From a methanotrophic endosymbiont of Bathymodiolus puteoserpentis (Logatchev) (GTDB taxonomy: Bacteria; Pseudomonadota; Gammaproteobacteria; Methylococcales; Methylomonadaceae): DNA of 64,000 bases. The translations under genes and the position numbers were made by a program. Under the pieces are notes generated by a model. It worked only from the letters and a program-made list of their open reading frames with translations. It was not told the DNA's origin and did not search any database. Positions 10,684 to 40,524 of this stretch are shown here, piece by piece; position 1 is the first letter of the stretch, and each line of letters opens with the position of its first letter. The DNA is taken from positions 1 through 64,000 of the forward strand of contig NZ_FQTQ01000092.1 of NCBI RefSeq assembly GCF_900128525.1, given 5' to 3'.

Positions 10684-10688
10684 AAGTT

Positions 10689-11181: not shown

Positions 11182-11283
11182 AAAAAGTAGTGTATTCACT
11201 TCTCTTTACCCGCCTACTTCATACGGTACTATATCATTTCAGGTATTGTTAAAATTTAAATCACTAGTCAAAGAGGCATAGTT

Positions 11284-13333: not shown

Positions 13334-13335
13334 AA

Positions 13336-14796: not shown

Positions 14797-14801
14797 TAAA
14801 G

Positions 14802-23284: not shown

Positions 23285-24682
23285 TTAATCACATTTCAAG
23301 TGATACTTCTGCACACGATAACGCAAAGTTTCACGGGTTGACCCTAACATTCTTGCCGCAGCTGCCACATTATAATCGGTCAATTCTAGCACTTGCTGTA
23401 AGATATATTTTTCCATATCTTGTAAAGTCAAACTACCATCCAGTGGGATATGTAACTGCTGAGAATTTTCAGCTGACACAGACATTTCACCCGCTTGTTT
23501 TTTGCTCGGTAATTGTAACCATTGCAATGGGAACTCTTGATCTTCAGCTAGTAACACACAACGTTCGATAACGTTACGTAACTCACGCGTATTTCCAGGC
23601 CAATGATAAGCCTGTAATTGAGCCCATGTTTCTGGCGATAAATTAGCGCTCACTTTCTTGCCTGATTTAGCATTAAATTCAGCAATAAATGCCGGGACAA
23701 GTTCTTTCATATCTTCCAAACGCTCCCTTAAAGGTGGAATATTAACCGAGAGTACACTGAGACGATGATACAAATCTTCTCTAAACTTCCCCTCTGCTAC
23801 CTGTTGCGATAAATCACGGTTAGTCGCAGCTATAATCTGCACATCCACGTCAATTTCAGTTTCACTACCTAAGCGGCGAATTTTCAATTCTTCAACGGCT
23901 TTAAGGAGTTTACTTTGTAAACCTAATTCCATCTCACCGATTTCATCCAAAAACAAAGTGCCTTGATGGGCTTGCTCAAATAATCCCCTGTGTCTTTTTT
24001 TGGCATTGGTAAAAGCGCCGGCTTCAAAACCAAATAATTCCGATTCTAATAAATCATGCGGCAAAGCAGCACAGTTAATCTCCACCAGCGGTTTTGTGCT
24101 TCTGTTACCACTGTAATGTAAAACTTTTGCTAATAAGCCTTTACCTGCACCAGTTTCACCGCTAATGACTAAACTAGAAAAAGGCACTTGAGCAATTCTG
24201 CTTAACATCGACTTCAAGGTTTTATTGCTTTCGCTACTCCCTAGAAAAGAGCTAACTGAATATTTTGTATGACTACTTTTTGCTTCTTGTAATAAACGGC
24301 GCTGAGCTTTAGCACTGCGAGCAGCCCCTTCAATTTGTAAATTTAAGCGGTTTAAATCGCAAGGCTTTTCAATAAAATCAAAAGCACCTAAACGTAAGGC
24401 TCTTACCGAATCTGAGATACTGCCATAGCCTGTCAAAAATAGCCATTCACTACATTCAATGGGCTTGTCCCGCATGTCTTCTAAGAAATCCAGTGCATTA
24501 CCATCAGGTAAATTCATATCCGATAAGATCACTATAGGATCAATTTTTTGTGCTAATAAAATATGCCTTGCTTTGCTAAGAGACTCAACCCACTCAACTT
24601 CCCAGTCTTGTTTCCTAAAAAAACGCTGTAACTCTAGACCTAATAATTTTTCATCTTCAATAATCAATAAACAATCTTTCAT
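23285..24682 (-). CDS. Sigma54-dependent response regulator (REC-AAA+-Fis), GAFTNA variant
   Basis: 465-residue enhancer-binding regulator. The receiver domain (1-120) has the acidic pocket IIEDE, phospho-acceptor D55 and K in FIEKP. The AAA+ domain has Walker A GETGAGK (about 176-182) and Walker B TLFLDEIGEM. The C-terminal Fis-type helix-turn-helix (about 420-465) carries NVAAAARMLGSTRETLRYRV. The sigma54-contacting loop reads GAFTNA (222-227) rather than GAFTGA, so the fifth residue is Asn226. The gene overlaps the kinase by 4 bases. Its target is unknown; the sigma54 promoter at 35863-35881 is a candidate. Confidence 0.92.
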   Translation of the reverse strand: MKDCLLIIEDEKLLGLELQRFFRKQDWEVEWVESLSKARHILLAQKIDPIVILSDMNLPDGNALDFLEDMRDKPIECSEWLFLTGYGSISDSVRALRLGAFDFIEKPCDLNRLNLQIEGAARSAKAQRRLLQEAKSSHTKYSVSSFLGSSESNKTLKSMLSRIAQVPFSSLVISGETGAGKGLLAKVLHYSGNRSTKPLVEINCAALPHDLLESELFGFEAGAFTNAKKRHRGLFEQAHQGTLFLDEIGEMELGLQSKLLKAVEELKIRRLGSETEIDVDVQIIAATNRDLSQQVAEGKFREDLYHRLSVLSVNIPPLRERLEDMKELVPAFIAEFNAKSGKKVSANLSPETWAQLQAYHWPGNTRELRNVIERCVLLAEDQEFPLQWLQLPSKKQAGEMSVSAENSQQLHIPLDGSLTLQDMEKYILQQVLELTDYNVAAAARMLGSTRETLRYRVQKYHLKCD

Positions 24683-26085
24683 GACTTTAATATGGGTAAA
24701 GTTAAGGTAACACAGGCATGCCCATCACGGGTATTACTCAGCTTGATGGTTCCCTGCTGAGACTTAACAAAGCGTTGTACCATAGCCAAACCTAGACCTG
24801 TACCCTTTGCCTTTAAACTAATAAAAGGTCTGATGCCATGCTTGAGAAAGTCTGGAGCAAAACCAGAACCCGTGTCTTCCACTCTGATGATAATCTGCTG
24901 TTTATCTTGCTGAGCCGTGAGTTGAATTTGACCGGGGTTATTACCAATGGCTTGCTGAGCATTAAGAAGTAAGTTTAATAAGGCTAAACGAAATTCAGTC
25001 GCAGGAAGAAAAGTATTTAAACCCGTTTCTATAGCAAAATTCAAACTAACATCTTCGGGAACCTGATATTTAAGAAATTGGCGTAATTCATAACAAAGTG
25101 CTTGCATATCGACCTGTGTCGCAGTATTTGATGAGCTTCTCGTTAATGCTAATAAATCATTCAAATGACAGGTTAAGCGTTTGACTTCAGTATTAACGGC
25201 TTGAATTCGTTCAGATAAATCATCATCCGTACAATCTTGTAAAATATTTTCCAGTGCCACCTGAATGCCGGCAAGTGGGTTACGTAATTCATGTGCCGTG
25301 CTAGCGGACAATTCGGCGACTACTGATAAACGCTCGCTATGAGCAATGGCTTGGCTTTGCTCCAACAAAGTTGAAGTGATTCGACGTACCTCTTGCTCTA
25401 ATTCGCCGGTATAATTCAGGTGCTCTTTCTCTAGCTCTGTCAGCCGCATCACTAATTGATTATAATTATCAAATAAACCTTGCATCGCTGGATCGGCAGC
25501 TTTCTGTCGAATCGGTTGACGATCACCTGCCGCTAACATTTGTAAAAAGTCTTTTAAGGAATCAAGCGGGGATAGAATATTTCGTTTGAAAAAATATCGC
25601 GCAATGATAAAAATAACAACAAAAGACAATAATGGCAAAATGATTGAAAGTTGTAGCTCTAATTGACTATCTTCAGCAATTCTCTGTAATAACTCTTCTT
25701 CCTCATCAGCTTGCCGCAAAAATAACTGATGTGTGGTATTGATTGCTTGTACCAACCTATCTGCATCACCTTGCAATGCTTTATCAAATGAAGTCTCTAA
25801 GCGCTGTATTTCACTTGCAATCTCAGGGTTATCTATATAACCAGCAAGTAAGCTATTTTGTAATTGTACTTGTGCGCCCTCCTGCTTGCTGGGCTGTAAT
25901 TGGTTATGGAGTAAAACAAAAATAACTTCATTGAGTCGATGGCCATTACGAATATCATTTTGCAATGCATTTAAGCGTTGATGATTGCGCCAGGTCAGCC
26001 CACCAATGGCAATAAACTCACCAATAATAAATAAACCTAAAAGAATACTAACAAAAATAACGGGTTTAAATAATAGCTTGCGCAT
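24679..26085 (-). CDS. Membrane sensor histidine kinase
   Basis: 468 residues. A first membrane helix (about 7-30), a helical periplasmic sensor (30-145) and a second helix (about 147-167) are followed by a HAMP-like linker and a coiled coil. The phospho-accepting H265 lies in ELSASTAHELRNPLAG. The C-terminal ATPase domain has N (NLLLNAQQAIGNN), G1 (DTGSGFAP) and G2 (GTGLGLAMV) boxes. The four-helix periplasmic region has no obvious ligand signature. It is the cognate kinase of the overlapping sigma54 regulator, and the YggU gene lies 34 bases upstream in the same unit. Confidence 0.93.
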   Translation of the reverse strand: MRKLLFKPVIFVSILLGLFIIGEFIAIGGLTWRNHQRLNALQNDIRNGHRLNEVIFVLLHNQLQPSKQEGAQVQLQNSLLAGYIDNPEIASEIQRLETSFDKALQGDADRLVQAINTTHQLFLRQADEEEELLQRIAEDSQLELQLSIILPLLSFVVIFIIARYFFKRNILSPLDSLKDFLQMLAAGDRQPIRQKAADPAMQGLFDNYNQLVMRLTELEKEHLNYTGELEQEVRRITSTLLEQSQAIAHSERLSVVAELSASTAHELRNPLAGIQVALENILQDCTDDDLSERIQAVNTEVKRLTCHLNDLLALTRSSSNTATQVDMQALCYELRQFLKYQVPEDVSLNFAIETGLNTFLPATEFRLALLNLLLNAQQAIGNNPGQIQLTAQQDKQQIIIRVEDTGSGFAPDFLKHGIRPFISLKAKGTGLGLAMVQRFVKSQQGTIKLSNTRDGHACVTLTLPILKS

Positions 26086-26119: not shown

Positions 26120-26482
26120 TCAGTTTGCATATTTAGCAATACTACGAGGCAAAACCTTCGGTGCTTTAATACGTAATTGCTTATTAATATTCATCCGTCC
26201 AAAAACGACTTCAATATCTTTAATATTAACCCCGAACTCTTTAGCCAAAAAACGCACCATATAGTCTGTTGCTTTGCCAGCAACGGGTTTAGCCGTAACG
26301 CTAATTTTCAATTGATTACCTTTAGGTTTACCAATAATATCGCGCTTAGCACTCGGAGTACCTAAAACATTCAAGACTAAAATATCCCCATCCCAAGCAT
26401 AAAAAGATTTCATTCTTTTGCTATTAAAATTTGAACTTTCTGTCTTTTCTTGTATTACTGCTGTTTTTTTCTTTTTAGCCAT
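26120..26482 (-). CDS. YggU/DUF167 family protein
   Basis: 120 residues. The core (about 30-115) matches the DUF167/YggU fold: LNVLGTPSAKRDIIGK, LKISVTAKPVAGKATDYMVRFLAKEFGV and the ending VVFGRMNINKQLRIKAP. The function of this family is unknown. An extra Lys-rich N-terminus of about 25 residues precedes the core. The gene is upstream of the sensor kinase and probably co-transcribed, but a functional link is not evident. The next gene upstream, of the complex I-like operon, ends 225 bases away. Confidence 0.85.
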   Translation of the reverse strand: MAKKKKTAVIQEKTESSNFNSKRMKSFYAWDGDILVLNVLGTPSAKRDIIGKPKGNQLKISVTAKPVAGKATDYMVRFLAKEFGVNIKDIEVVFGRMNINKQLRIKAPKVLPRSIAKYAN

Positions 26483-26707: not shown

Positions 26708-27217
26708 CTATTTTTTCATCAAACTGAGTAACCCTTTAACCAAAGTTTCCGGTGTGGGTGGGCAACCAGGAATCACAATATCAACAGGAATGACATTAGC
26801 AACAGCACCACAACTGGCATAAGAAACACCAAACTCACCACCACAGGCGGCACAATCCCCCACCGCAATCACCCACTTAGGGTTCGGCGTTGCTTCATAA
26901 GTACGCAGCAATGCGGTTTGCATGTGTCGTGCAACAGGGCCAGTGACTAATAAAACATCCGCATGCCGAGGTGAAGCAACGAAATGAATACCATAGCGTT
27001 CAACATCATAAATAGGATTATTTAACGCATGAATTTCTAATTCACAGCCATTACAAGAGCCCGCATCGACCGCACGAATAGCAATACTGCCCGAAAAATA
27101 TTTATCTACCTGGCGCTTTACTTCTATACCCAAGGCGTCTAACTCAGAAGCATCAGGGCGTTTTATTTTTTCAGTAACAATGCCAGTTTTTAAAGTTTTC
27201 GCAAAAAGTCTTAACAT
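26708..27217 (-). CDS. hyfI: NuoB/HyfI-like [4Fe-4S] subunit of complex I-like complex
   Basis: 169 residues of the complex I 20 kDa/hydrogenase small-subunit family. All four ligands for the proximal [4Fe-4S] cluster are present: C55 and C58 (SCNGCE), C122 (GDCAACGG) and C152 (PGCPPTPE). It is shorter than E. coli HyfI (about 250) because the C-terminal extension is absent. It is the last gene of the operon, 9 bases after the large subunit. It would sit on the cytoplasmic side of the membrane arm as an electron-entry or relay subunit, yet no ferredoxin-like partner gene (HyfA/HyfH type) is nearby. Confidence 0.93.
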   Translation of the reverse strand: MLRLFAKTLKTGIVTEKIKRPDASELDALGIEVKRQVDKYFSGSIAIRAVDAGSCNGCELEIHALNNPIYDVERYGIHFVASPRHADVLLVTGPVARHMQTALLRTYEATPNPKWVIAVGDCAACGGEFGVSYASCGAVANVIPVDIVIPGCPPTPETLVKGLLSLMKK

Positions 27218-27226
27218 TGTGATGTC

Positions 27227-28810
27227 CTATAGGTCATTTCCAGAATAAGAAGGGTTAACTGATTTATTACAGACGGGAAAATCCGGTACGATATTATTCA
27301 GTACAATTTTTTCCAGAGCTAGAAAACCAAAATGGCTAGGATCTCGCGCATAAAAACGACTGATTTTATCATCACTGCTAAAGCGCACATAAGTCATAAT
27401 CTCACCTCGCCAGCCTTCAACCATGGCCAAGCCTTCGCTATATTCCTTAGGTTTTTGCCATGCCGTCACTAACTCGCCTTCCGGTAATTGAGTTAACATT
27501 TGGCTTAATAGCTTAATTGAGGCAAACACTTCTTTTATACGCACCCAGACTCGAGAGGCTACATCGCCTTGTTCTTCTACAGCCACTTTAATATTTAATT
27601 GATTATAGGGCGCATAAGATACATCACGGCGTACATCAAAATCTTGACCACTCGCCCTAGCCACATAGCCCACTACTCCGTAAGTCGCAGCGGTACTGGG
27701 CGATAAATAACCCGTAGTAAATAAACGATCTTCTAAAGAAGAGTTTAAGTCTAGCGCAGGGATAGTCTCATCTAGCTCTTTACGTAAAACTTTTAGTTCT
27801 TGCGTTAGTAAGGTGCAATCTGCTACAGATAAATCAACCTTAACGCCCCCCGGAATAAGCCTATCCATTAATAAACGATGGCCAAACACACTAGCCGAAT
27901 TACGTTGCCATTGCTCACGTAAACGACTGAATTGCATTTGTGCAAAAGCAAAACCAACATCATTACAAATAGCACCTATATCACCTAGATGATTAGCAAT
28001 ACGCTCACGTTCACATAAGATCCCGCGAATAAAAGCCGCGCGTTCTGGAATAGTAATACCAGCCGCTTGCTCCATTGCGCGACAAGCGGCCCAACTATGT
28101 GCCACGGTGCTATCTCCAGAAATTCGTCCCGCTAAACGCACTAGTTTTTCAGGCGTTCGACCTTCAGCCAGTTTCTCTATGCCTTTATGTACATAGGCAA
28201 GTCGCTCTTCAAGATTTAAAATCGTTTCACCAACCGCTTGAAAACGAAAATGTCCTGGCTCAATAATGCCAGCATGTATTGGCCCCACTGGCACTTCATA
28301 AACACCTGCACCTCGGGCTTTAACAAACTGATAATCCATATTCGCTGGGGTAATGACTTCAGGCATCCCCTGAAGAGGAAAATCTTTGCGCAAAGGATAA
28401 TCATGCTTTTTCCAAGCACAATGCCGCGTCCACTTTCTGGAATCAGGGCGATCAACAAAATGAATACCAAACATATCCTGCGTATGACGCTCACTACGAC
28501 TTGCTACTGGGTATATAGTGGCTTGTGAAGGCAGTTGAGGTTTCTCAATATGCAACTCAGTCTGTAACCATAAATATCCTGTTTGACTTGCAAAACAGGC
28601 GTTAACAACAAAAGTATCCTCCCTTTGTTCTGCCCAACCGGCTACCCAGCGTAAGTGGTGTTGCTGAGCAATCGTGGCAAAACGTAGCCAGTCATCAGCG
28701 CTAATTGTCCACCGTGCTAAATTATTAACAACAGTACTATTGTGTGGAATGACTTCAGCTTCCAGTGCTAACTGTAAGGCTAACTGCCAATTAGAATGGA
28801 CTTCACTCAT
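27227..28810 (-). CDS. hyfG: NuoCD/HyfG-like large subunit lacking [NiFe] ligands
   Basis: 527-residue fusion of a NuoC-like domain (about 1-150, with ERHTQDMFGIHF) and a NuoD/hydrogenase large-subunit domain (about 160-527). In group 4 [NiFe] hydrogenases the N-terminal motif reads RxCGxC and the C-terminal one DPCxxC. Here they read RISGDS (S231 and S234) and NPSYSG (S521 and G524), so all four metal cysteines are gone. It cannot carry a NiFe site and is best placed with complex I-like energy-converting-hydrogenase-related (Ehr) subunits. It overlaps the HyfF-like gene by 4 bases. Confidence 0.93.
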   Translation of the reverse strand: MSEVHSNWQLALQLALEAEVIPHNSTVVNNLARWTISADDWLRFATIAQQHHLRWVAGWAEQREDTFVVNACFASQTGYLWLQTELHIEKPQLPSQATIYPVASRSERHTQDMFGIHFVDRPDSRKWTRHCAWKKHDYPLRKDFPLQGMPEVITPANMDYQFVKARGAGVYEVPVGPIHAGIIEPGHFRFQAVGETILNLEERLAYVHKGIEKLAEGRTPEKLVRLAGRISGDSTVAHSWAACRAMEQAAGITIPERAAFIRGILCERERIANHLGDIGAICNDVGFAFAQMQFSRLREQWQRNSASVFGHRLLMDRLIPGGVKVDLSVADCTLLTQELKVLRKELDETIPALDLNSSLEDRLFTTGYLSPSTAATYGVVGYVARASGQDFDVRRDVSYAPYNQLNIKVAVEEQGDVASRVWVRIKEVFASIKLLSQMLTQLPEGELVTAWQKPKEYSEGLAMVEGWRGEIMTYVRFSSDDKISRFYARDPSHFGFLALEKIVLNNIVPDFPVCNKSVNPSYSGNDL

Positions 28811-30270
28811 AACGGAGCACTCCCTGAAATTAAAATAGTCGCCTGGGTAAACCAGTCAGCTAAAAAATCTGGCATCGCAAGACCCAGCCATAAAACAATC
28901 GCTAAATGAATCATTACCGGCCATAAATTGGCTTGAACAGCTTGCTGGCCTTCAGGTTTTTCACCATAAACCATAGGTTGAATATTTCTAAATAAACCTG
29001 CACAAGCAATACCAATTCCTAATAATAGAAAAGGAGCCAGCCATGGGTAACTTTGCATAGTTGCCAGTAACACTAAAAACTCACTGGCAAATACGCCAAA
29101 CGGAGGAAAACCTGCAATGGCTAAAGTACCAATCAGTAAGCCCCAACCGACTTGAGGTTGCGTTTTAATTAAACCACGAATTTTTTCAATACTTTGCGTG
29201 CCGGATATTTGTGCGGCATGGCCCACGGTCACAAAGATAGCGGATTTAGTCAGCGAATGCACAGTCATATGCAATAACGCGGCAAAGGTAGCAAATGGGG
29301 TTCCGATACCAAAGGCAAAGGTCATTAAGCCCATGTGTTCAATAGAAGAATAGCTAAACAAGCGTTTAATATCTTTTTGCCGATGCAGAAAAAATGCCGC
29401 GACTAGAAATGACAACATGCCAAACCCCATCATTAAATACCCCGCAATATGACTATCGGTAGCCCCATCAACCAACATTTTATTACGTACTACGGCATAC
29501 AAGGCATCATTCAATAATAACCCAGATAAAACCGCTGACATGGGCGTTGGCCCTTCTGAGTGTGCATCTGGCAGCCAATTATGCAAAGGAACAAGACCAA
29601 TCTTAGTTCCGTAACCTATTAGCATAAAGACAAAGGCAATTTCCAAAATCTCAGGGTCTAACAACTTGGCATTTTCATATAACACCGACCACGTTAAGGC
29701 ATTGTCAACATCACTAATTTGTATCGCTGCGTAGTATAATAAAATTGTACCGAACAGGGCCTGCGCAATCCCGACACCGCAAAGGATAAAATATTTCCAC
29801 GCAGCTTCAATAGACTCGGGGGTACGATATAAACTAACTAACAATACTGTAGCCAAAGTAGCTGCTTCCATAGCAACCCACATAATGCCCATATTATTCG
29901 TGGTCAATACCAGATACATGGCAAACATAAAACCTTGATACATCGAGTAATATAGTCTTAATCGATTGGCAGTCAATTTACCAATCTCTTGTTCATGCGC
30001 CATATAAGGTGCCGAAAAAATAGACGTGGTAAAGCCGACAAAAGCCGTTAAGACGATCAAGTAGACATTAAAGGAATCGACAATAAAATACTGATCAGTT
30101 GAGAGTATCGTACCTGACAGAAAGACATTCACCGCAAGCCATAAAGACAGGAGTAAAGTCACGCCATTAAAGCGAATATTTTGCTTACCGACGTCTTCCT
30201 TATGCCCTAATAAACCAAAATAAAGAATACCAAGCAAGGGTAATAATAATAACAAATAGGCTGGAATCAT
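28807..30270 (-). CDS. hyfF: HyfF/NuoN-like antiporter-type membrane subunit
   Basis: 487 residues with about 14 membrane helices, of the Mrp/NuoL-M-N/HyfF family that moves H+ or Na+. Conserved features are WVAMEAATLATVLLVSLYR (key Glu of helix 5) and KIGLVPLHNWLPDAHSEGPT (Lys of helix 7 and the HxWLPDAH motif). KRLFSYSSIEHMGL is also present. It overlaps HyfE-like and HyfG-like genes by 4 bases on each side. With the HyfB-like subunit it gives the complex two candidate ion pumps. Confidence 0.93.
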   Translation of the reverse strand: MIPAYLLLLLPLLGILYFGLLGHKEDVGKQNIRFNGVTLLLSLWLAVNVFLSGTILSTDQYFIVDSFNVYLIVLTAFVGFTTSIFSAPYMAHEQEIGKLTANRLRLYYSMYQGFMFAMYLVLTTNNMGIMWVAMEAATLATVLLVSLYRTPESIEAAWKYFILCGVGIAQALFGTILLYYAAIQISDVDNALTWSVLYENAKLLDPEILEIAFVFMLIGYGTKIGLVPLHNWLPDAHSEGPTPMSAVLSGLLLNDALYAVVRNKMLVDGATDSHIAGYLMMGFGMLSFLVAAFFLHRQKDIKRLFSYSSIEHMGLMTFAFGIGTPFATFAALLHMTVHSLTKSAIFVTVGHAAQISGTQSIEKIRGLIKTQPQVGWGLLIGTLAIAGFPPFGVFASEFLVLLATMQSYPWLAPFLLLGIGIACAGLFRNIQPMVYGEKPEGQQAVQANLWPVMIHLAIVLWLGLAMPDFLADWFTQATILISGSAPL

Positions 30271-30944
30271 TGATCCACCTCATTTAAACGATTCATTTTA
30301 TCCACATCCAAAGAATCAATACTGCTATTGATATGTAGAAAGAAAATACCAAATAATACGGCTGCTACTAGCACATCAAAGGCAACCCCTAATTCCACCA
30401 CCATGGGCATGCCATTCGTTGAAACAGTTGCCGCAAAAAACAAACCATTTTCAATCGACATAAAGCCAACCACATGAGCAATAGCTTGATGATGGGAAAT
30501 CATCAGTAACATACCTAATAAAATAACCGCAAGACTCAAAGACAACGCATTCAATAAAACCATCGAGGAGTTTTGCATAATGGGGTGCAATACGTAGTAA
30601 CTAAAGACCACAAGGCTTGCACCGCCCATCATAATGGCTGTTTTATTATTTAATGCTTCAACATCACGGTGCATATTGAGTTTCAAAATATGCCGCCTGA
30701 GCATCCAAGGGATAAATATCACTTTCAATGCCAAAGTAATGGCAGCAGAAATATACAGGTGTGGGTTATTAAAACTATAGGCCGCGATAGCAGTGGCCGA
30801 TACCAACATAAAGCCTTGTACTGCAAACACAAATACCAAGCGTAGCAAACGCCCTTGCGCTAGCATGATAAAAGAGCTCAGCATCACCAAAGCAGCCAAT
30901 GACAAAATAATTTGAGAATAATGATCTAAATTTTCAATTTCCAT
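30267..30944 (-). CDS. hyfE: HyfE-like (NuoK-related) membrane subunit
   Basis: 225 residues, about six to seven membrane helices, matching hydrogenase-4 component E in length (216 in E. coli). The MSIENGLFFAATVS segment carries the buried Glu that corresponds to the NuoK-type proton-path residue. Overlaps: one base with HyfC-like and four with HyfF-like. It would sit between the antiporter subunits and the NuoH-like subunit. No HyfD-type third antiporter gene is present in the operon. Confidence 0.9.
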   Translation of the reverse strand: MEIENLDHYSQIILSLAALVMLSSFIMLAQGRLLRLVFVFAVQGFMLVSATAIAAYSFNNPHLYISAAITLALKVIFIPWMLRRHILKLNMHRDVEALNNKTAIMMGGASLVVFSYYVLHPIMQNSSMVLLNALSLSLAVILLGMLLMISHHQAIAHVVGFMSIENGLFFAATVSTNGMPMVVELGVAFDVLVAAVLFGIFFLHINSSIDSLDVDKMNRLNEVDQ

Positions 30945-31888
30945 TAGCGTGCTGCCTCCAAAATAATATGACTGAGCATACCAAGTAAGCCCAATAAATA
31001 AGCAAAACTCAAAAATTCCTGTACACGAAATAAGCGCATTTTCGCTAGTAAAGTTTCAGAGATCGCTAGCACCACTACCAATAGCGCGAGCTTACCCATA
31101 ATCGCCAAAAGGCCATAGCCTAAAACTGAAAGTGACAAAGTTTCTGCAATGCCCCAAGGAAAGAAAATATTGGCAATTAACACGCCATAAAGCATCAGTT
31201 TTAACTGACTAGCCCATTCAATCAAAGCTAAATGACGACCACTGTATTCTAAAATCATGGCTTCATGAATCATGGTTAATTCCAAATGAGTCGCAGGATT
31301 ATCCACCGGAATACGCCCCGTCTCTGCCACAGCTACCAACATTAAGGCTGATAAGGAAAAAATAAATGAGGGCCGCAAGACTAAGCCTTCTTGCAAAACA
31401 TGGTCTATCGCAAAAGATAAATTAGTGGTTGAGGCTGTCATCGTTAAAGTAAAGACTGCCATTAACATCGCGGGCTCTGCCATAGCAGAAATCGTCATTT
31501 CTCGTGAAGAACCCATACCGCCAAAGGCAGTACCGACATCTAAGCCAGCCAATACCAGAAAAAACCGTGCAAAGGCTAAAAAACCAACGAGTACAATCAC
31601 ATCAGCACTGCTTGCCGTAGGTAAATCTACCGCAAGCAGTGGCACCACACTGACGGCTAAAGCCGTAGTAGAAAAAATAATATACGGTGCAATAATAAAC
31701 AACCAAGAAGCATCTTTAGAGACCACCGGTTGTTTATGTGTCAATTTAATCAAATCACGATAAGGTTGGAGCAATGAGGGTGCTCTACGATTTTGTAAAT
31801 GACATTTACACCACTTTACCCAGCCCGCTAATAACGGCGCTAAGGCGATAAATAATAATGTTTGAATAATGGCGAATAAGACATTCAT
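30944..31888 (-). CDS. hyfC: HyfC/NuoH-like membrane subunit
   Basis: 314 residues, equal to E. coli HyfC (315), with eight helices. The cytoplasmic loop PSLLQPYRDLIKLTHKQPVV and the ETGRIPVDNPATHLELTMIHE segment are the family hallmarks; the latter holds the conserved acidic residues that couple the catalytic arm to the membrane. The gene shares single bases with its neighbours. It is the anchor linking the soluble NuoB/NuoCD-like pair to the antiporter subunits. Confidence 0.94.
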   Translation of the reverse strand: MNVLFAIIQTLLFIALAPLLAGWVKWCKCHLQNRRAPSLLQPYRDLIKLTHKQPVVSKDASWLFIIAPYIIFSTTALAVSVVPLLAVDLPTASSADVIVLVGFLAFARFFLVLAGLDVGTAFGGMGSSREMTISAMAEPAMLMAVFTLTMTASTTNLSFAIDHVLQEGLVLRPSFIFSLSALMLVAVAETGRIPVDNPATHLELTMIHEAMILEYSGRHLALIEWASQLKLMLYGVLIANIFFPWGIAETLSLSVLGYGLLAIMGKLALLVVVLAISETLLAKMRLFRVQEFLSFAYLLGLLGMLSHIILEAAR

Positions 31889-34005
31889 TAGCTAATCACC
31901 CATAATAAGAAAATTAATGTAAAAAAAGAATAGCTTAAATAAACGCGGATATTCCCAGTTTGCATGCGACTAACCAGCCGAGCAATACGGTTTACAGACT
32001 TTTCTATCGGCTGATATAGTTTCGGCCAACTATGGTCATTAACATGCAACTCATAATGGATGTCAGTGACTTGCAAAGGCATAGTTCCAGGCTGTTTTGT
32101 AATCGTTTCATCAATTATCCAAACTTTAGAAAAGATACGTCTAAACGGCATAGTAAAAGCACTAGAGGTATATTGCATACGAGGGGTAAGCCCACCAAAC
32201 CCGCAATCCCAAGTCTCTGATTCGCGTAATGCCATTGCCGGATCACGGCGTAGATAGCGATAACTAATGCCACCAGCAATAGCCGCTAAGAACAGAACGA
32301 TAGGCGCGGAATAGGATGCTTTTTCTGCGGAAACAGGTGTTAACCATAACCAGCCTGCGGCTGTTGCATTCGGCAGGCTATGCCCTAATAATTGCAAAGC
32401 GACATTATCTAGCAGGTTAATCATTAAGCCCGGAAATATACCGAATAAAAAGCATAATCCAGCCAATAGACTCAAACTAAATAGCATCCCTTTGTCTTGT
32501 GTCTCTTCTGCTTTCGCCGCATGGCGTGTACGTGGCAAACCTAAAAACATCATACCAAATAATTTAACAAAACAAGCGGCTGCCAAGGCGGCTGTTAAAG
32601 CTAAAGCTGCGGCCATTACCGGAACCAAGCTGCGTAATACCGCATCATCCAGTACTCCCACTTGCAAGGCAGCTTGAAACGCCAGCCATTCAGAAACAAA
32701 ACCATTTAATAAAGGCAATGAAGAAATACTCATACAAGCGATCAAAAATAATTTACTGGTGTGTGGCATACGTTTAATTAAACCCCCCATATCATCTATA
32801 TTTAAACTATGTACCTGATGCTGGATAATGCCTGCACCAAGAAATAATAAATTTTTAAATAAAGCGTGATTAAAGGCATGAAACAACGCGGCAACAAAGC
32901 CTAAAGCCGCAAGAGTAGGATGTCCTTTGGCGAGAAAAATCATTGATAAACCCAGCACCATAAAAATAATACCGATATTTTCTACCGAACTGTAAGCCAA
33001 TAAACGTTTCAAATTTGGTTGCATCATGGCATATAAAATCCCACCTAAGGCGGAAATAGCACCAATAATCATTAGTGCAACCCCCCATTGCCATTGAATG
33101 TCACCGAGTAAATCAAAGCTAAAACGAATTAAACCGTAGACAGCGACTTTTAACATAACACCGCTCATTAGCGCGGAAATATGCGAAGGGGCAACGGGGT
33201 GCGCTTCAGGCAACCAAACATGTAACGGTACCAAGCCAGCCTTCATACCAAAACCCACTAACGCCAAAACAAAGGCGACACTCGCCCATGTATCAGATAG
33301 TGACGCATTACGTAAAGCATCAAAGGTAAATGCACCGCCGTCAGAAAAGCTAGCTAATACCCCAAATGCCAAAATAATGGCTATCGCCCCCACCTCAGCC
33401 ATAATTAAATAGATAAAAGCAGCATGACGATTAGCAGAATTTTCATGTTGGAAAGCCACCAGGAAATAACTAGCGACCGACATTAATTCCCATGAAATCA
33501 TAAAGAAGAAAGCATCATCAGCCAATAATACCAATAACATACCAGCAATAAATAAGCCGCTGAATAAACCTAATACTGCAAAAGGGTGTTCCTGCTCATT
33601 ATTACCTTTAACATAGCCAGGGCCATAGCAACTGACGGCAAAAATAGCGATACCGATAATGAGGAAAAATAGGCCAGATAAACTATCAAAGCGTACATGC
33701 CAAGGAAGCCAAGGCAGTCCTAAGGGTAATTGTGCTGTCATGGCTTGTTCACTAATTAAGCCACCTACTCCTGCAATCATGGCAAACACCCCTGCCATGC
33801 CCAAACATATAAAGCTAAGTTGCTGTATGCGCTGCGGATAGACAGATTGTTCTAGCCAGTTATTTAAGCACTGTTGCCAATCAGGCCGCTTGGTACAACA
33901 ATAATGCACCCACTTTATCACGCTACAATGTTGCCGCATCAGCAATGCCAGTATACCTGACAAAAAACTGAGTAGCACCGCTGCATAAGCTAAGAATAGA
34001 ATCAT
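31888..34005 (-). CDS. hyfB: HyfB/NuoL-like antiporter-type membrane subunit
   Basis: 705 residues and about 16 membrane helices, the first gene of the complex I-like part of the locus. WELMSVASYFLVAF (helix 5 Glu), KAGLVPLHVWLPEAHPVAPS and KRLLAYSSVENIGIIF are the antiporter-type signatures. A C-terminal extension includes a soluble WDCGFGGLTPRMQYTSSAFT segment as seen in hydrogenase-4 component B. The gene starts 152 bases after the SulP stop on the same strand, so it may be read from the SulP promoter or from its own. Confidence 0.94.
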   Translation of the reverse strand: MILFLAYAAVLLSFLSGILALLMRQHCSVIKWVHYCCTKRPDWQQCLNNWLEQSVYPQRIQQLSFICLGMAGVFAMIAGVGGLISEQAMTAQLPLGLPWLPWHVRFDSLSGLFFLIIGIAIFAVSCYGPGYVKGNNEQEHPFAVLGLFSGLFIAGMLLVLLADDAFFFMISWELMSVASYFLVAFQHENSANRHAAFIYLIMAEVGAIAIILAFGVLASFSDGGAFTFDALRNASLSDTWASVAFVLALVGFGMKAGLVPLHVWLPEAHPVAPSHISALMSGVMLKVAVYGLIRFSFDLLGDIQWQWGVALMIIGAISALGGILYAMMQPNLKRLLAYSSVENIGIIFMVLGLSMIFLAKGHPTLAALGFVAALFHAFNHALFKNLLFLGAGIIQHQVHSLNIDDMGGLIKRMPHTSKLFLIACMSISSLPLLNGFVSEWLAFQAALQVGVLDDAVLRSLVPVMAAALALTAALAAACFVKLFGMMFLGLPRTRHAAKAEETQDKGMLFSLSLLAGLCFLFGIFPGLMINLLDNVALQLLGHSLPNATAAGWLWLTPVSAEKASYSAPIVLFLAAIAGGISYRYLRRDPAMALRESETWDCGFGGLTPRMQYTSSAFTMPFRRIFSKVWIIDETITKQPGTMPLQVTDIHYELHVNDHSWPKLYQPIEKSVNRIARLVSRMQTGNIRVYLSYSFFTLIFLLWVIS

Positions 34006-34035
34006 AAGAGCTCTCTCAAATTAAAAGGAATTGGA

Positions 34036-34052
34036 GATGCAAGTGCATGCCC
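34036..34052 (-). promoter_or_regulatory. Weak sigma54-like site upstream of hyfB
   Basis: On the - strand GGGCATGCACTTGCA resembles the -24/-12 consensus TGGCAC-N5-TTGCA. However, the GG-GC distance is 10 only with one choice of GG, and the match is imperfect. It could give hyfB its own promoter downstream of the SulP gene. Low confidence. Confidence 0.3.
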
Positions 34053-34157
34053 CATAATTATTTTTTTGAAGTGTCATATCACAAAATATGAATATACTAT
34101 GCCAGTGCTCAACAAAATAAACACTGACACAGCATGCACTAAAAAAGAATAATTAGC

Positions 34158-35822
34158 TTAATGTTTACGATCATCAGCCGTCATAAGTCGGGCCGCTAAA
34201 TCATGATCAGAAAAAGTATGAATAGCATCACCGATTTGCTGACAATGCCCCCCATGTGATTCATAATCATGGATAAAATCATGCATATACTCCATAACTG
34301 TATGATCAATTAAATACGCATTTGTTAAGTCTAATGTGATATTTTTACCTTTCGGTAAATTATCCAGTGCTTTTTTCATTGGTAAAAAATTAGCAAATAA
34401 AGCCGAGCCATTCAATTTCAGAGTAACTTGTTCACCCGCCTCTTCTTTAATAGTGAAATAAATTTTGAATAAATTACTCCACCAGACACCACGCAAGATA
34501 TGTACTAAAAGTTTAACCACAATACCAATCGCCACACCGATCAATAAATCAGTCGCTAACACGCCAATAATAGTGACAATAAACATAAAAAACTGTTCGC
34601 TACCGACTTTTAATACTTTGCTAAATTCAGTTGGTGCAGCCAGTTTAAAACCAGTAAATACCAGTAATGCGGCCAATGCTGATAAAGGAATGCTATGGAT
34701 CACCCCAGGAAATAACACCACAAATAACAACATGATTGCGCCATGAAAGAAATTAGCCCAACCCGTTTTTGCACCATTATTAATATTCGCTGAACTCCGT
34801 ACCACCTCAGAAATCATCGCAGTACCACCAATTAGACCAGAAAGCGTATTACCTGCACCAATGCCTATAATATCTTTATCTAAATTTGAACGGCGCTTAT
34901 AAGGATCAAGTTTATCCACAGCAATCGTTGTCAACAGGCTTTCCAAGCTGCCCACGAGACAAATACTTATCACAGCCACCCAAAATTCCACTTCGGTAAT
35001 TTTAGAAAAGTCGGGAAAATAAAAGCTAGATATAAAATGATCTGAAATTGAAACCAGATAATTAGGGCCTACCTGACCTTCATGCACTAAATGCCCCGTT
35101 AGCATATCGAGCTGATGTGGCACATGATAAATATGGGTATGATTTAGATCAAAGTACATCCCTAAACCAATACCTAAAAGTACAACGATAATAGGGGCGG
35201 GTATTTTTTTCAGTAAGGGCTGCTGTAGCCTACTCCACAAAATCATGATCAGTAAACCAACAATACCAATAAAGGCAATTTCACTATTCATGTTCATAAT
35301 ACTATGCGGTACTTGTGCCATAGAGGAAAACAGGCTGCCGGGTTCTGGCGTAGCTCCTAACATGACATGAATTTGTTTGGTAATGATAATAATACCAATT
35401 GCCGCCAACATACCGTGAACGACCGAAGTAGGAAAAAATGAACTTAGGCTACCTAATTTTAAAAAGCCGATAACAATCTGTAATATACCGGCAACGACAA
35501 TAGCAGCTAGAGTGTATCGATAACCCGCCATTGGGTCACCGGCCCCCATCGTTTGGACAGCATCTAATATCACGACTATTAGCCCCGCAGCAGGCCCTGC
35601 AATCGTAACAAAAGAGCCATTTATACGCGAAACAAACATCCCACCCACAATAGCACTGAGAATACCTGCCATAGGCGGTAAACCTGAAGCCATTGCAATA
35701 CCTAAGCTGAGAGGTAAGGCAATCAAAAAAACAAGAAAACCAGAAATTAAATCTTGATGCCAGTATTTTTTTAAACCAGCAATCCCCGTTTCCGGTACGC
35801 CCTGTAAAGTAGAATCATTCAA
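34158..35822 (-). CDS. SulP family anion transporter with STAS domain
   Basis: 554 residues: about 11-12 membrane helices (20-430) with the SulP signature IAGPAAGLIVVILDA, then a C-terminal STAS domain (about 450-545; ITLDLTNAYLIDHTVMEY). SulP carriers move sulfate, bicarbonate, molybdate or carboxylates; some bacterial ones supply bicarbonate for carbon fixation. The start is TTG at 35820-35822, supported by GGAGG six bases upstream. It stands at the head of the complex I-like operon behind a strong sigma54 promoter. Substrate is not determined by sequence; bicarbonate is an inference from the neighbours. Confidence 0.93.
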   Translation of the reverse strand: MNDSTLQGVPETGIAGLKKYWHQDLISGFLVFLIALPLSLGIAMASGLPPMAGILSAIVGGMFVSRINGSFVTIAGPAAGLIVVILDAVQTMGAGDPMAGYRYTLAAIVVAGILQIVIGFLKLGSLSSFFPTSVVHGMLAAIGIIIITKQIHVMLGATPEPGSLFSSMAQVPHSIMNMNSEIAFIGIVGLLIMILWSRLQQPLLKKIPAPIIVVLLGIGLGMYFDLNHTHIYHVPHQLDMLTGHLVHEGQVGPNYLVSISDHFISSFYFPDFSKITEVEFWVAVISICLVGSLESLLTTIAVDKLDPYKRRSNLDKDIIGIGAGNTLSGLIGGTAMISEVVRSSANINNGAKTGWANFFHGAIMLLFVVLFPGVIHSIPLSALAALLVFTGFKLAAPTEFSKVLKVGSEQFFMFIVTIIGVLATDLLIGVAIGIVVKLLVHILRGVWWSNLFKIYFTIKEEAGEQVTLKLNGSALFANFLPMKKALDNLPKGKNITLDLTNAYLIDHTVMEYMHDFIHDYESHGGHCQQIGDAIHTFSDHDLAARLMTADDRKH

Positions 35823-35862
35823 GAGAGACCTCCAATATTAAAGAAGAAAGATTAGAATACCT

Positions 35863-35881
35863 AAAGCAATCCTTGTGCCAC
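35863..35881 (-). promoter_or_regulatory. Strong sigma54 (RpoN) promoter of the SulP/complex I-like locus
   Basis: On the - strand the sequence reads TGGCAC, AAGGA, TTGCT, a full match to the -24/-12 consensus with exactly 10 bases between GG and GC. Transcription would start near 35854, about 32 bases before the TTG start codon with its GGAGG site. Any such promoter needs an enhancer-binding activator. Confidence 0.88.
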
Positions 35882-35962
35882 ACACATTGACGACTTTAAC
35901 TTATTGATTATATAGATAAGTTAATTAAACCCTTCCTTTAAGGGCCCAAAAATAAAATAAAG

Positions 35963-36001
35963 TGGTTCATATAAACCAGGCTAGATGGTTTATATGAACC
36001 A
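35963..36001. repeat. Perfect 16-bp inverted repeat, candidate enhancer site
   Basis: TGGTTCATATAAACCA at 35963-35978 and its exact complement at 35986-36001 are separated by 7 bases. Relative to the predicted sigma54 start it lies at about -109 to -147, the normal location for an activator's upstream site. Alternatively it could be a hairpin in RNA; no T run follows it on the - strand. Confidence 0.75.
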
Positions 36002-36330: not shown

Positions 36331-37077
36331 ATGAATAAAATCAGACATACAATCCTATTAAGCGGCTTATTAAGCTTACCAATCTCAGGCTTTTCTGCTG
36401 AAGTCATCATACCCCCCGGATCGAATGCGCCTGCGAGCACAAATAATGTCTTTGGTGTATGGGGCTCTGTCACATTAAAAGGTGATTTCAAAGCGGTATC
36501 CCCTTCCCTAGACAAATTTCATTGGCAAATTATGAATCAAACGCGTACCCGAGATGATTCAGACCAAGGTACACGATTTACAGAAAATTTATTATTCACT
36601 CAAATCGGTTATCAACTAAATAAACATGCTTCGATTTGGCTGGGTTATGTACATGACTGGATTGCACCTTTAAATAAAACAACGCTTAATGAAAACCGTA
36701 TCTATCAGGATTTTGTCTGGAAACAGAGTTTCGGGGAATTTAATTTCACTAGTCGCACCCGTATGGATGAGCGCATGCATTTACGTACGGGGGGACCTAA
36801 CGCTTACCGACCACGACAATTGTTAAAAATCAGTCATGCCTTACCCTTTGCCGATGGCTTGAGTGCTTACATTGGGGATGAGGTGTTGTTTTACCTAAAT
36901 AAAAACCATTTTGGTAAACAAGGTTTTTCTGAAAATCGTATTTTTACAGGTTTAAGCTATCAAGCAAATCAGAAGGTAGGATTGAAATTAGGCTATATGG
37001 GGCAGTATGTAGACACTATTTCAGGCAGTAATTTATTTACGCACAATATACAAGCAGATATTAGCTATAAATTTTAA
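36331..37077 (+). CDS. DUF2490 outer-membrane beta-barrel protein
   Basis: 248 residues. A signal peptide ends near GFSAE, and the mature chain has alternating beta strands typical of the DUF2490 family (FGVWGSVTLKGDF, FTENLLFTQIGYQL, ENRIYQDFVW), closing with a C-terminal aromatic strand ending in F. The family is predicted to form small outer-membrane barrels of unknown function. It is transcribed divergently from the SulP/complex I-like operon, which suggests but does not prove a link. Confidence 0.85.
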   Translation: MNKIRHTILLSGLLSLPISGFSAEVIIPPGSNAPASTNNVFGVWGSVTLKGDFKAVSPSLDKFHWQIMNQTRTRDDSDQGTRFTENLLFTQIGYQLNKHASIWLGYVHDWIAPLNKTTLNENRIYQDFVWKQSFGEFNFTSRTRMDERMHLRTGGPNAYRPRQLLKISHALPFADGLSAYIGDEVLFYLNKNHFGKQGFSENRIFTGLSYQANQKVGLKLGYMGQYVDTISGSNLFTHNIQADISYKF

Positions 37078-37408: not shown

Positions 37409-39487
37409 TTACGCATCATTAAATTCCTTCTTAAGCAAAACATATAATTTACTGGAAATAATTTCATGTTTATGTAAATCTTTGAGGGTATCTGCCTGAG
37501 TAATACTTAGCAAAGCTTTTGCGGATTGTGCATTCATCTCATCCACTAGGTCTTTGTTTGATTTGATTTCATCGGCCATTTGCTGCACGGTTTTACTTTG
37601 CAGATATTGATAAATATTTTCGACATTCTGAAAAGCTTTGGGGTCATCGAAGATTTCGATTAAGGGCGATTTTTTTATTAAAGCCAGATCATCAATTACT
37701 TTGCTAACCAGTTTGTATTGTGTCCGATAATAAAGATAAAGCTCTTGTGTTTCACTTAAATTACTAGATGACGAGAAAAAACGCTTGATAATAAGATTTA
37801 TTTTACCTACCCATGAATCTAAATATGTATTGAGTGATTCTAATTGAGGGCGATCCTGTTCAATCCGCTCTGTTTGTGTTTCTAAAATCAACAAATTCTT
37901 TTTGTATATATTCTCATTGATTTCGGCACGCCTAAAAATTTCTTTCAGTTCTCTTTTCTGTAGTGCCAAGGTATAAATACGCAACATATTTTCAACCACA
38001 TGGCTAGAGTCTTTATTTTTTTCATTACATTGCCGACAAATATTTTGGTATAAAGCTTGATGCTCTTCTGTCAAAGACTTGTACTGTGCTTCATTAATAT
38101 ATTGATGCTCAAAAAGCTCTTTAGTGCGAGCATTTAAACTTTGATAAATGAGCGCCTTACTTTTAAAGTAGCTCATTCTTTCATGAGGTAACAAAGTATC
38201 AATATTTAGCCAGTGTATTACCTTGCCAATCGTTGTCGCTTTAATAATCAAAGTAAAATAAATGCTACCGATAGTGATAGCAGTAATAAACTCTTTGATT
38301 GTAAATTCGTAATTCCAGTTAGGGAGGCTCAAATCATCAGGGATAAGCATAACCATAATAACGGCAATAGCACCCCGTAAACTGCCCCAAGAGAGTAGAT
38401 GTTGCCAGTTTACAGGAATATCTTCTTCCGATTGATTGAGATTCGCCATGCCTATTGAACAATAAACAGAAACTGCACGAGCAACGACAACAACTATAAT
38501 TGTGATCAAAATTGGCAGGATCGCAACATGTAGAGCAATGGAAAGGCTGGTAAACAACAAGCCCATTAGAATAAAAACGAGAGAGTTAGCGAGAAAAGCA
38601 AAATAAGACCAGAATTTTTCCATGTACTCTTCAACGCCAGCAGACATTTTATAACGCCCAAAATTCCCCATAACAATGGAAGAAACGAGTGTGGCAATAA
38701 TAGAAGAAATCTGAATATGATAGCTATTTATGACTAATTCCTCAGAAATAAGCTCCGCTAAAAGAAAGGTAAAATGGGCGACCAGTAAAGTCAAGGTAAT
38801 TTCAAGATGCTCATGGCCTTTCACCCATTCAATAAGCTTAGAAAATAAAAACCCCATCAATAAGCCAAAGAGCCCACCTCCCACAATCATGGTAAAGAAT
38901 GCAAAAATCCCTTGTAAAACAGTCGTTGTACCGTGAAAACCATGTAGCATAACTTCTAGGAAGACCAGAAAGATAGCAAAGGCAGTTCCGTCGTTAAATA
39001 GACTTTCGCCTTCAAATATCAAAGTTAAACGACGCGGAGCACCATACTCTTTAAATAAGGACAAAACGGCCACGGGATCCGTTGCAGAAATAATGGCACC
39101 AAAGAGCAAGGTAACTAGCAGCGGAATATCAAAACCCAGTAGCCCAAATGCCCAACGACCAACATAGCCAATAAAAAAAGTTGAAATCAGCAAGCCAACA
39201 ATAGCTAACATACTGATAGCAAATTTATTTTCTTGGATATTACGAATTTTCATATTGTAGGCCGACTCGAAAATTAGAATCGGTAGAAAAACGAAAAACA
39301 ACAGTTCCGGTGTTAGTTGAAAACTGGTAACAAAAGAAAATGCCTCTATATTAGCAAGCGGCACCAGCAAAGAGCCGCCAATAACAAGCAGGACAGTATA
39401 AGGAATACGCGTTTTCAGCGAAAGTATGTTGATTCCCAGAGAAAATAATATCAGGGTAAAAATGGATAAATATACATCGAGTGTCAT
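37409..39487 (-). CDS. NhaP-type cation/H+ antiporter with long cytoplasmic tail
   Basis: About 692 residues from the ATG at 39485-39487 (MTLDVYLS), where the first membrane helix begins. The frame is open to 39592, but that extension is polar and not family-like; the ribosome site is weak, so the start is uncertain. The first ~415 residues form 12 or so helices of the CPA1 Na+/H+ exchanger family, with FGAIISATDPVAVLSLFKE and FEGESLFNDGTA as hallmark segments. The last ~270 residues are a charged helical cytoplasmic domain, probably regulatory. It fits the Na+ handling suggested by the V-ATPase ring. Confidence 0.9.
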   Translation of the reverse strand: MTLDVYLSIFTLILFSLGINILSLKTRIPYTVLLVIGGSLLVPLANIEAFSFVTSFQLTPELLFFVFLPILIFESAYNMKIRNIQENKFAISMLAIVGLLISTFFIGYVGRWAFGLLGFDIPLLVTLLFGAIISATDPVAVLSLFKEYGAPRRLTLIFEGESLFNDGTAFAIFLVFLEVMLHGFHGTTTVLQGIFAFFTMIVGGGLFGLLMGFLFSKLIEWVKGHEHLEITLTLLVAHFTFLLAELISEELVINSYHIQISSIIATLVSSIVMGNFGRYKMSAGVEEYMEKFWSYFAFLANSLVFILMGLLFTSLSIALHVAILPILITIIVVVVARAVSVYCSIGMANLNQSEEDIPVNWQHLLSWGSLRGAIAVIMVMLIPDDLSLPNWNYEFTIKEFITAITIGSIYFTLIIKATTIGKVIHWLNIDTLLPHERMSYFKSKALIYQSLNARTKELFEHQYINEAQYKSLTEEHQALYQNICRQCNEKNKDSSHVVENMLRIYTLALQKRELKEIFRRAEINENIYKKNLLILETQTERIEQDRPQLESLNTYLDSWVGKINLIIKRFFSSSSNLSETQELYLYYRTQYKLVSKVIDDLALIKKSPLIEIFDDPKAFQNVENIYQYLQSKTVQQMADEIKSNKDLVDEMNAQSAKALLSITQADTLKDLHKHEIISSKLYVLLKKEFNDA

Positions 39488-39592
39488 ATTTTTTCTTATA
39501 TGGGTTATTTTATTACTTATCTGACCACTCATTAAGGATAGGTTCTCAATGAGCAGAGCCTGACCGATCTTTTGGGTATTATACACTTTCAC

Positions 39593-39963: not shown

Positions 39964-40524
39964 ATGGCGCATGATTTTGAACAACTGACACAGTATGCTA
40001 GGTCGTTCACGCACCTAACCTCAGAAGACGAGGCATTATTAAAGGAGGTGGGGGCAACCATCACCCCCCATTTAAAATCAATTACTGAAAGCTTTTATAT
40101 ACAGCTAGGCCTTATTCCGGAAACCCAACCTTTCCTAGAGGGCCGAGTGGATTCACTAAAAGCAATGCATACACAGTGGTTAGAAAGTTTATTTACCACA
40201 GAATTTAATGCCAGTTATACAGAGCATATGTATAAAGTGGGCAGTGTTCATGTACAAGTACAGCTACCTGTTGAATTTATGTCAGGCGGTATGACCTTAA
40301 TTAATGACCAATTGATCCCTTTAATCATTAATCTATTTGGTGAAGATACAGATAAGTGCGCAAAAATTTTATCCGCCATTAATTCTGCAACAGGCTTTTC
40401 TCTCTTAACAATGCAACAGTCTTACCAAGAAGCGAGCATCGCGGAAGAATTAGAAAAATTTTTGAAAATATCAGGCATGAGTCGAGTGTTATTCTCCAAT
40501 CTTGCTAAAGCTTATAACAACTAA
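39964..40524 (+). CDS. Single-domain sensor globin (protoglobin/GCS-type)
   Basis: 186 residues matching the heme domain of globin-coupled sensors and protoglobins. The HTQWLESLF segment is followed by the proximal-helix motif VGSVHVQVQLPVEF, with H96 as expected heme ligand. No signaling domain (MCP, GGDEF, kinase) is attached; the protein ends after the globin fold with a short helix. Likely role: binding of O2, NO or CO in the cytoplasm. It is followed 14 bases later by a roadblock/LC7 gene, so the output may pass through that partner. An AAGGAG site supports the start. Confidence 0.85.
   Translation: MAHDFEQLTQYARSFTHLTSEDEALLKEVGATITPHLKSITESFYIQLGLIPETQPFLEGRVDSLKAMHTQWLESLFTTEFNASYTEHMYKVGSVHVQVQLPVEFMSGGMTLINDQLIPLIINLFGEDTDKCAKILSAINSATGFSLLTMQQSYQEASIAEELEKFLKISGMSRVLFSNLAKAYNN

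Follow-up and report, generated by a model that had tools for sequence, protein, structure and literature searches.

Background

Escherichia coli formate hydrogenlyase and hydrogenase-4 are under sigma54 control, and the E. coli hyf operon also carries the Foc-type channel gene focB and the regulator HyfR. The DAB/DAC and cyanobacterial NDH-1 CO2 uptake complexes couple complex I-type subunits to inorganic-carbon uptake. For energy-converting hydrogenase-related (Ehr) complexes (Marreiros 2013, cited in PMC6349859, available passages), the function is called unknown in the available part of PMC10284858. The Hyq complex of Azorhizobium caulinodans (hyqRBCEFGI) has been in print since 2009, and its large subunit HyqG was already stated in 2012 to be without CxxC motifs (PMC3357923, available passages). 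Here, a stretch of 64,000 nucleotides (hereafter the window; positions 1 to 64,000 of contig NZ_FQTQ01000092.1) from a methanotrophic endosymbiont of Bathymodiolus puteoserpentis, a member of the Methylococcales, was analysed, in which a gene for a SulP-family anion carrier precedes six genes, hyfBCEFGI, whose predicted products make up the Hyq/Ehr core complex, as described in Azorhizobium. The complex family itself is thus already known, and what is new is the link of SulP to Hyq under sigma54 in Methylococcales; neither a SulP-headed Ehr operon nor a SulP-Hyq link was found among the top-ranked papers of the openly licensed literature searched. The source genome (G000) comprises 3.23 Mb, is 99.99% complete by the search tool's figure, and has Methyloprofundus and metagenome-assembled genomes (MAGs) of Methylococcaceae as its nearest named relatives.

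The locus shares with A. caulinodans hyq the six structural genes in identical order, without A or D, a sigma54 promoter (PMC2650096, available passages) and a large subunit that is a NuoC-NuoD fusion without CxxC (44% identity to HyqG over HyfG residues 93-527), whereas SulP replaces the small regulatory gene hyqR and a two-component pair follows the operon. Unlike rhizobial Hyq in the narrow sense, it has no upstream hyqR, and nifH remains below the cut-off in G000. The combination of a group 4-like large subunit lacking Ni/Fe ligands with antiporter-like subunits is that of Ehr complexes. E. coli formate hydrogenlyase and hydrogenase-4 provide the closest HyfG fold and the best match by sequence in the PDB, but the unit described here is without nickel-iron ([NiFe]) cysteines, ferredoxin subunits, HyfD or formate dehydrogenase. 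From respiratory complex I it differs in the replacement of the NuoD quinone ligands and in that NuoEFG, the NADH-oxidising module, was not among the open reading frames (ORFs) read around the operon. SulP belongs to the same carrier family as the SulP bicarbonate carriers and cyanobacterial BicA, and its nearest paralogues in G000 are linked to carbonic anhydrase; unlike those carriers, it has no carbonic anhydrase in its operon, falls far under the cut-off of the BicA model and has a complex I-like machine as partner. The pairing of complex I-type subunits with inorganic-carbon uptake recalls, by analogy, DAB/DAC and cyanobacterial NDH-1 (PMC10880623, available passages), but in contrast to DAB there is no DabA in G000, the carrier is a SulP, and there are redox subunits, HyfG and HyfI.

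Conservation of the SulP-Hyq gene order

Confirmed relatives in named genomes numbered 462, and gene order was compared in the best 80 of these (the near set), a choice that leans to near relatives. Twenty-four loci were dropped (14 without a scorable hyfB and 10 with less than 2 kb upstream), and in 39 of the 56 informative loci a SulP gene was located on the same strand no more than 1.5 kb upstream. In 3 loci (L042, L046 and L049) it was on the opposite strand and in 14 it was absent, while among the 10 loci with short upstream sequence it was visible in 2. At least 5 of the informative loci (L097, L098, L103, L110 and L115), all without SulP, are titled as outside Methylococcales or carry no order. 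The SulP-hyfB order is kept across many genera, so that the synteny proposed in the first-pass annotation is not peculiar to this genome; its recurrence holds for the near loci and mainly for one order. Sixty regions from outside the order were taken, comprising 39 of 42 class-search genomes beyond the order, a second locus of one of these (G415), and 20 others from a phylum search that matched 72 genomes (outside-order status being the search tool's kinship label), and in none of the 50 informative regions was SulP found upstream on the same strand. The six-gene core thus occurs widely, with SulP added mainly within Methylococcales.

When the ORFs of all 80 near loci were clustered, families recurring in addition to hyfBCEFGI were SulP (45 loci), DUF2490 (24), a histidine kinase (20) and a response regulator (20), and every other ORF family was present in at most 5 loci. 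Several operons contain two tandem SulPs, which belong to two subclades. In L052, a 91-residue SulP-like piece (4015-4290) lies upstream of hyfB and suggests decay of SulP in that lineage. Two further loci depart from the common arrangement. L119, an uncounted region from outside the order (6517-11828; one of 6 regions without hyfB), encodes, 468 bases upstream of hyfF, a SulP-like protein of 585 residues (23% identical), with the SulP-like gene, hyfF and hyfG on the same strand and hyfB, C and E not in between. On a Methylotetracoccus contig of the near set (L112, 2-2695), SulP (48%) stands directly before hyfG, unlike the usual order. L119 weighs against a strict limitation of the SulP-Hyq link to the order, and L112 shows a variant order.

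Gene calls and co-transcription

All seven genes lie on the minus strand of the window, and family scans agree with the first-pass assignments. The identity of the operon parts is close to certain. SulP (34158-35822, 554 aa; PF00916, 4.2e-61) starts with TTG behind GGAGG. It is followed by the genes for the NuoL-like antiporter subunit HyfB/HyqB (31888-34005, 705 aa; NF005086, 806 bits, cut-off 667), the NuoH-like HyfC/HyqC (30944-31888, 314 aa; PF00146, 2.7e-37), the small membrane subunit HyfE/HyqE (30267-30944, 225 aa), the antiporter-like HyfF/HyqF (28807-30270, 487 aa; NF005045, 768.7 bits, cut-off 543), the NuoC-NuoD fusion HyfG/HyqG (27227-28810; Complex1_30kDa and Complex1_49kDa) and the NuoB-like small subunit HyfI/HyqI (26708-27217; PF01058, 3e-34). 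HyfE matched NF008556 at 5e-25 with 88.6 bits, below the cut-off of 136, and its position within the operon is the same in relatives. The overlaps of 1 to 4 bases reported among the genes were found from hyfB to hyfG (1 base at B/C and C/E, 4 bases at E/F and F/G), whereas hyfG and hyfI are separated by 9 bases and SulP and hyfB by 152. ORFs of at least 80 aa around the operon were read by eye and 11 of these were scanned with Pfam; among the ORFs so read there was no HyfD, HyfA, HyfH or hyp gene, in line with the absence of HyfD, ferredoxin subunit and maturation genes noted at first pass.

The SulP-hyfB gap of the window (34006-34157) has no sigma54 site and contains an AT-rich 18-pair hairpin (34135-34094, minus strand) whose tail falls short of a clean T run, and which may be a terminator, an attenuator or an mRNA end. 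SulP and hyfB of the window may or may not share a transcript. Across the 39 loci with SulP upstream, the gap has a median of 100 bases (range 12 to 661), and a terminator-like hairpin was detected by a loose rule in 16 gaps (including that of L036, as long as the window's) and not in the other 23. A single transcript is plausible for many SulP-hyf operons.

Sigma54 promoter and candidate regulator

A sigma54-type promoter (TGGCAC-N5-TTGCT; TGGCACAAGGATTGCT, 35880-35865, minus strand) is located 42 bases ahead of the SulP start codon, and what had been described as near-perfect is in fact perfect, with 0 mismatches to the consensus. Shuffling of the window gave 0.13 perfect sites expected, and 13 of 100 shuffles contained at least one, so that a single perfect match taken alone is suggestive only and the weight of the site rests on its conservation, through which it becomes convincing. 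A site with at most 2 mismatches was present upstream of the first SulP in 31 of 39 operons, relative to 250 of 2,000 random 460-base windows drawn from the same loci, and 30 of these 31 sites lie -1 to 49 bases ahead of the called start (start codons are from a simple ORF caller, and distances may be off by tens of bases). At the same threshold, no site was found in 41 SulP-hyfB gaps, 1 of 14 middle SulPs was preceded by one, and 4 of 19 operons without SulP had a weaker site at the hyfB head. SulP is thus the head of the regulated unit, given the sites at the first SulP and their absence from the SulP-hyfB gap. The 8 of 39 first-SulP heads without a site at this threshold were L057, L059, L060, L064, L068, L076, L087 and L099; in L059, L060, L064 and L087 the SulP is split or cut by a contig end, and in L076 the site precedes the second SulP, not the first.

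Downstream of the operon, on the same strand, are a membrane histidine kinase (24679-26085; HisKA and HATPase_c) and a sigma54-activating response regulator (23285-24682; Response_reg, Sigma54_activat and HTH_8). The kinase family was found in 20 of the 80 near loci, and relatives of the regulator, on the same strand, also in 20 of 80. The response regulator is a candidate regulator of the operon. In PMC6977074, a paper on the hypoxia response of Methylobacter, none of the terms sought was present.

A complex without the [NiFe] site

HyfG was aligned across 140 loci and the window (141 rows), and all four [NiFe] cysteines, which form two CxxC pairs, were present together in none of the rows; one of the four was found in 6 rows, and 6 had gaps at the second pair. 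This bears out the earlier assignment to an Ehr-type complex without [NiFe] site. At the first pair, HyfG reads RxSGD[ST] and at the second SYSGxDL (in the window, RISGDS at 229-234 and NPSYSG at 519-524), and HyqG of A. caulinodans, identified in 1 of 391 genomes through an exact hit of a published primer, and of R. leguminosarum carry the same RxSGD/SYSGxDL motifs. Both the best PDB sequence match (1.5e-66) and the closest fold (7z0s_E; Foldseek, 7.7e-31) were the large subunit of E. coli formate hydrogenlyase. Alignment to E. coli complex I showed NuoD His228 replaced by Ile183 and Tyr277 by Gly232, residues of NuoD which we take to be ligands of the quinone head group; Ile183 was found in 142 and Gly232 in 141 of 143 rows. 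The segments WELM, GFGMKAGLVPLH and HALFK, presumably proton channel elements, are present in HyfB, and channel-type lysine segments are retained in HyfB and HyfF. HyfI cysteines 55, 58, 122 and 152 fit an N2-type cluster, as assigned by comparison with HyqI (PMC3357923, available passages). Judged by these residues, electron transfer and ion movement appear to be within the capacity of the Hyq complex.

Two approaches to a possible metal site in HyfG were abandoned. Of 139 rows, 118 combine Cys282 with Cys514 or Cys520 and 17 have lost all of them; where residue 514 is Asn or Val, residue 520 is Cys in 8 of 9. The pattern fits 135 of 139 rows, but on the tree it comes down to 3 and 2 changes, so that it carries no statistical weight. 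The AlphaFold2 model of HyfG had a mean predicted local distance difference test score (pLDDT) of 79, but because values fell below 50 exactly at residues 159-207 and 505-527, no claim is made about pocket geometry.

Maturation, hydrogenase and complex I genes elsewhere in the genomes

No maturation system or other hydrogenase, which according to the first-pass annotation would have spoken against its proposal, lies near the operon. In a sample of 369 genomes of the class, HyfG was present in 44 (E <= 1e-60) and the maturation protein HypD in 143; HypD was found in 20 of 44 Hyq-positive genomes vs 123 of 325 others (p 0.33). The 24 Hyq-positive genomes without HypD are all listed at 91% completeness or more, from which it follows that [NiFe] maturation is not needed by the complex. 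Among 61 relatives, by contrast, HypD was present in 26 of 27 Hyq-positive genomes vs 14 of 34 others (p 5.6e-6), an association that is read as shared lifestyle within the order; dependence on Hyp maturation, so strongly suggested by these relatives, was rejected since the association is gone in the class sample.

A PF00374 search of G000 gave no match besides HyfG. On another contig of this genome (C108, L208, 10573-15316), hypF, hypC, hypD and a hypE-like gene are present, and an IS200-type transposase gene adjoins hypF. In a relative (L209), hydrogenase genes flank hyp, but no counterpart of these was seen in the 20 kb read around the G000 hyp genes, and the lack of structural genes alongside could be a result of either decay or an assembly gap. 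No nifH scored over the cut-off in G000, and nifH did so in 11 of 27 Hyq-positive vs 5 of 34 other genomes (p 0.04); a general role in N2 fixation, as in rhizobia, was discarded in view of the absence from the genome itself. A search with the HyfG protein as query detected no second, NuoCD-like match in G000, which may thus have no complex I-type arm other than the Hyq complex; the same search gave such a second match, presumed to be NuoCD from score and length, in 12 of the 61 genomes.

HyfG-type genes are often annotated as hydrogenase-4 or formate hydrogenlyase, and such labels invite false claims of H2 metabolism in methanotrophs. In the available passages, a methanotroph paper (PMC10974252) labels genes that may be of this family hydrogenase or formate hydrogenlyase, and a paper on a sulfur oxidiser does likewise while noting the missing ferredoxin subunit (PMC4136832).

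Possible cargo of SulP

The closest solved relative of SulP was 6ki1 (5.8e-26), named a low affinity sulfate transporter and, we assume, BicA. A Pfam search at E <= 0.05 detected no STAS domain. When 60 SulPs, including the other 3 from G000, were placed in a midpoint-rooted tree, the Hyq-linked proteins clustered together, beside a group that holds two of these three paralogues, of which one is fused to a beta-carbonic anhydrase (L003) and the other has one as the next gene (L001). In the passages available, SulP with carbonic anhydrase has been read as bicarbonate transport in A. ferrooxidans (PMC6458275) and M. capsulatus (PMC11423575), and a Methyloprofundus isolate shows very high transcription of one beta-carbonic anhydrase, the reason for which is described as unclear (PMC8788690). 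DabA, another kind of protein for uptake of dissolved inorganic carbon, is encoded downstream of hyfI in L050 (12465-16957), which has no SulP and where a NuoL-like gene lies behind DabA, and in L076 (DabA region 12664-15183), which has two. As a regular partner DabA was rejected, since these are its sole occurrences in the near set and the 60 outside regions had none; G000 had no match to PF10070. The carbonic-anhydrase and DabA neighbourhoods are leads for bicarbonate, not proof, and the chances that bicarbonate is the cargo of SulP appear about even.

Proposed function and alternatives

The reading that we favour would have a sigma54 activator, probably the adjacent kinase and regulator pair, switch the operon on under inorganic-carbon shortage, perhaps combined with low oxygen. 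SulP would then import bicarbonate, driven by the membrane potential or an ion gradient, and the DUF2490 protein encoded next to it may let the anion cross the outer membrane. The Hyq complex would pass electrons from a cytoplasmic donor via its single N2-type cluster, and its two antiporter-like subunits would move H+ or Na+, which would pay for the uptake and offset the pH change. A functional link between SulP and the complex is fairly probable. The whole chain, sigma54-induced inorganic-carbon uptake energised or balanced by the Hyq complex, remains tentative, and we place it somewhat below an even chance. A tighter coupling, with SulP and the cysteine-less complex forming one redox- or gradient-driven bicarbonate pump, seems improbable; if true, it would add a third complex I-based design of inorganic-carbon uptake beside cyanobacterial NDH-1 and DAB, and would give an Ehr complex a defined role.

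Several observations count against uptake of inorganic carbon by this route. GAFTGA, which we take to be the sigma54-contacting loop of such regulators, is present in 17 of 20 regulator homologues, and the adjacent regulator is less likely to be the activator in this lineage because the loop reads GAFTNA in the window, L036 and L037. The complex does not need SulP, as outside the order it mostly stands alone (0 of 50). SulP passed no NCBIfam SulP cut-off (BicA, 136.6 of 880 bits; DauA, 194.8 of 614; sulP, 143.1 of 380), no carbonic anhydrase gene is present in the SulP-Hyq operon, and SulP has Glu at the position aligned to an Asp of BicA that presumably binds Na+. DabA occurs in only 2 of the 80 near loci, and its association with Hyq across the 61 genomes was not significant (12 of 27 vs 8 of 34, p 0.10). 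Nor is a SulP automatically a bicarbonate carrier, since one of two Thiomicrospira SulPs did not rescue an E. coli carbonic-anhydrase mutant (PMC12628692, available passages).

Three other explanations were weighed. SulP could move formate, much like the Foc-type channel encoded beside E. coli hyf, or exchange formate for bicarbonate, and at low oxygen the metabolism of formate or H2 would supply Hyq with electrons. This would agree with the Azorhizobium system, whose HyqG shares the HyfG motifs and in which, in the available passages, hyq deletions alter H2 uptake and evolution in vivo and the promoter is of sigma54/NifA type (PMC2650096, PMC3357923), with complexes of formate dehydrogenase and Ehr proposed elsewhere (PMC6349859, available passages), and with the HypD association among the 61 genomes. 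That association is, however, lost across the 369 class genomes, neither a formate dehydrogenase nor a hydrogenase family is among the recurrent neighbours of the operon in the 80 near loci, and G000 is without nifH over the cut-off or a PF00374 match besides HyfG. We consider such a module rather unlikely, though not far behind the favoured reading. The same Azorhizobium genetics (PMC3357923, available passages) and the frequent pairing of Cys282 with Cys514 or Cys520 could instead be taken to indicate a working hydrogenase, the Azorhizobium Hyq 'endo-hydrogenase', handling H2 at an unusual site. Against this stand the 0 of 141 sequences with four cysteines (and 6 with one of them), the 24 of 44 positive class genomes lacking HypD, the two or three tree changes behind the cysteine pattern, and the doubt about a [NiFe] site raised in PMC3357923 itself; an active [NiFe] hydrogenase was rejected on the first two of these counts, and a hydrogenase of any such kind is highly improbable.

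SulP might also be a carrier of sulfate or another anion that merely shares a promoter with the complex, both being needed under one condition, without mechanistic coupling. Such co-regulation would explain why Hyq is without SulP in 50 of 50 outside-order regions and 14 of 56 near loci, and it would tolerate SulP-hyfB gaps of up to 661 bases, the hairpins in 16 of 39 of them, and the SulP remnant upstream of hyfB in L052. Yet many genera share the SulP-hyfB order, with the first SulP preceded by the sigma54 site, the tandem SulPs fall into two subclades, and 23 of 39 gaps are without hairpin at a median length of 100 bases, and simple promoter sharing is judged doubtful, about as likely as the formate/H2 module. 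With a recurrent partner in SulP, a fixed type of promoter and a candidate regulator, all in culturable species of Methylobacter, the function of Ehr becomes testable, and the operon may offer a clue to inorganic-carbon acquisition by methanotrophs.

Neighbouring genes and other features of the window

Divergent from SulP, a DUF2490 protein is encoded at 36331-37077 on the plus strand (PF10677, 8.3e-50) and is possibly an outer-membrane barrel. Between the operon and the two-component pair lies a gene for a YggU/DUF167 protein (26120-26482, minus strand; PF02594), with matches in L036 and L038, which is probably incidental. Two genes from SulP, a CPA1-type Na+/H+ antiporter-like gene was recognised by eye (37409-39592); as a regular neighbour it was rejected, being matched solely in L036 among the 80 near loci, many of which are too short. 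L036, from a MAG titled Methylophaga sp., contains a 15 kb stretch with proteins 97-100% identical to those of the window locus, and its title or binning is doubtful for that reason. A protoglobin (39964-40524; PF11563), a possible gas sensor, is also encoded near the SulP-Hyq locus. Further away, a cluster at 758-8432 reads by eye like a V/A-type ATPase, and an Rfam group II intron match (8342-8416, plus strand, 64.5 bits) is located at its upstream edge.

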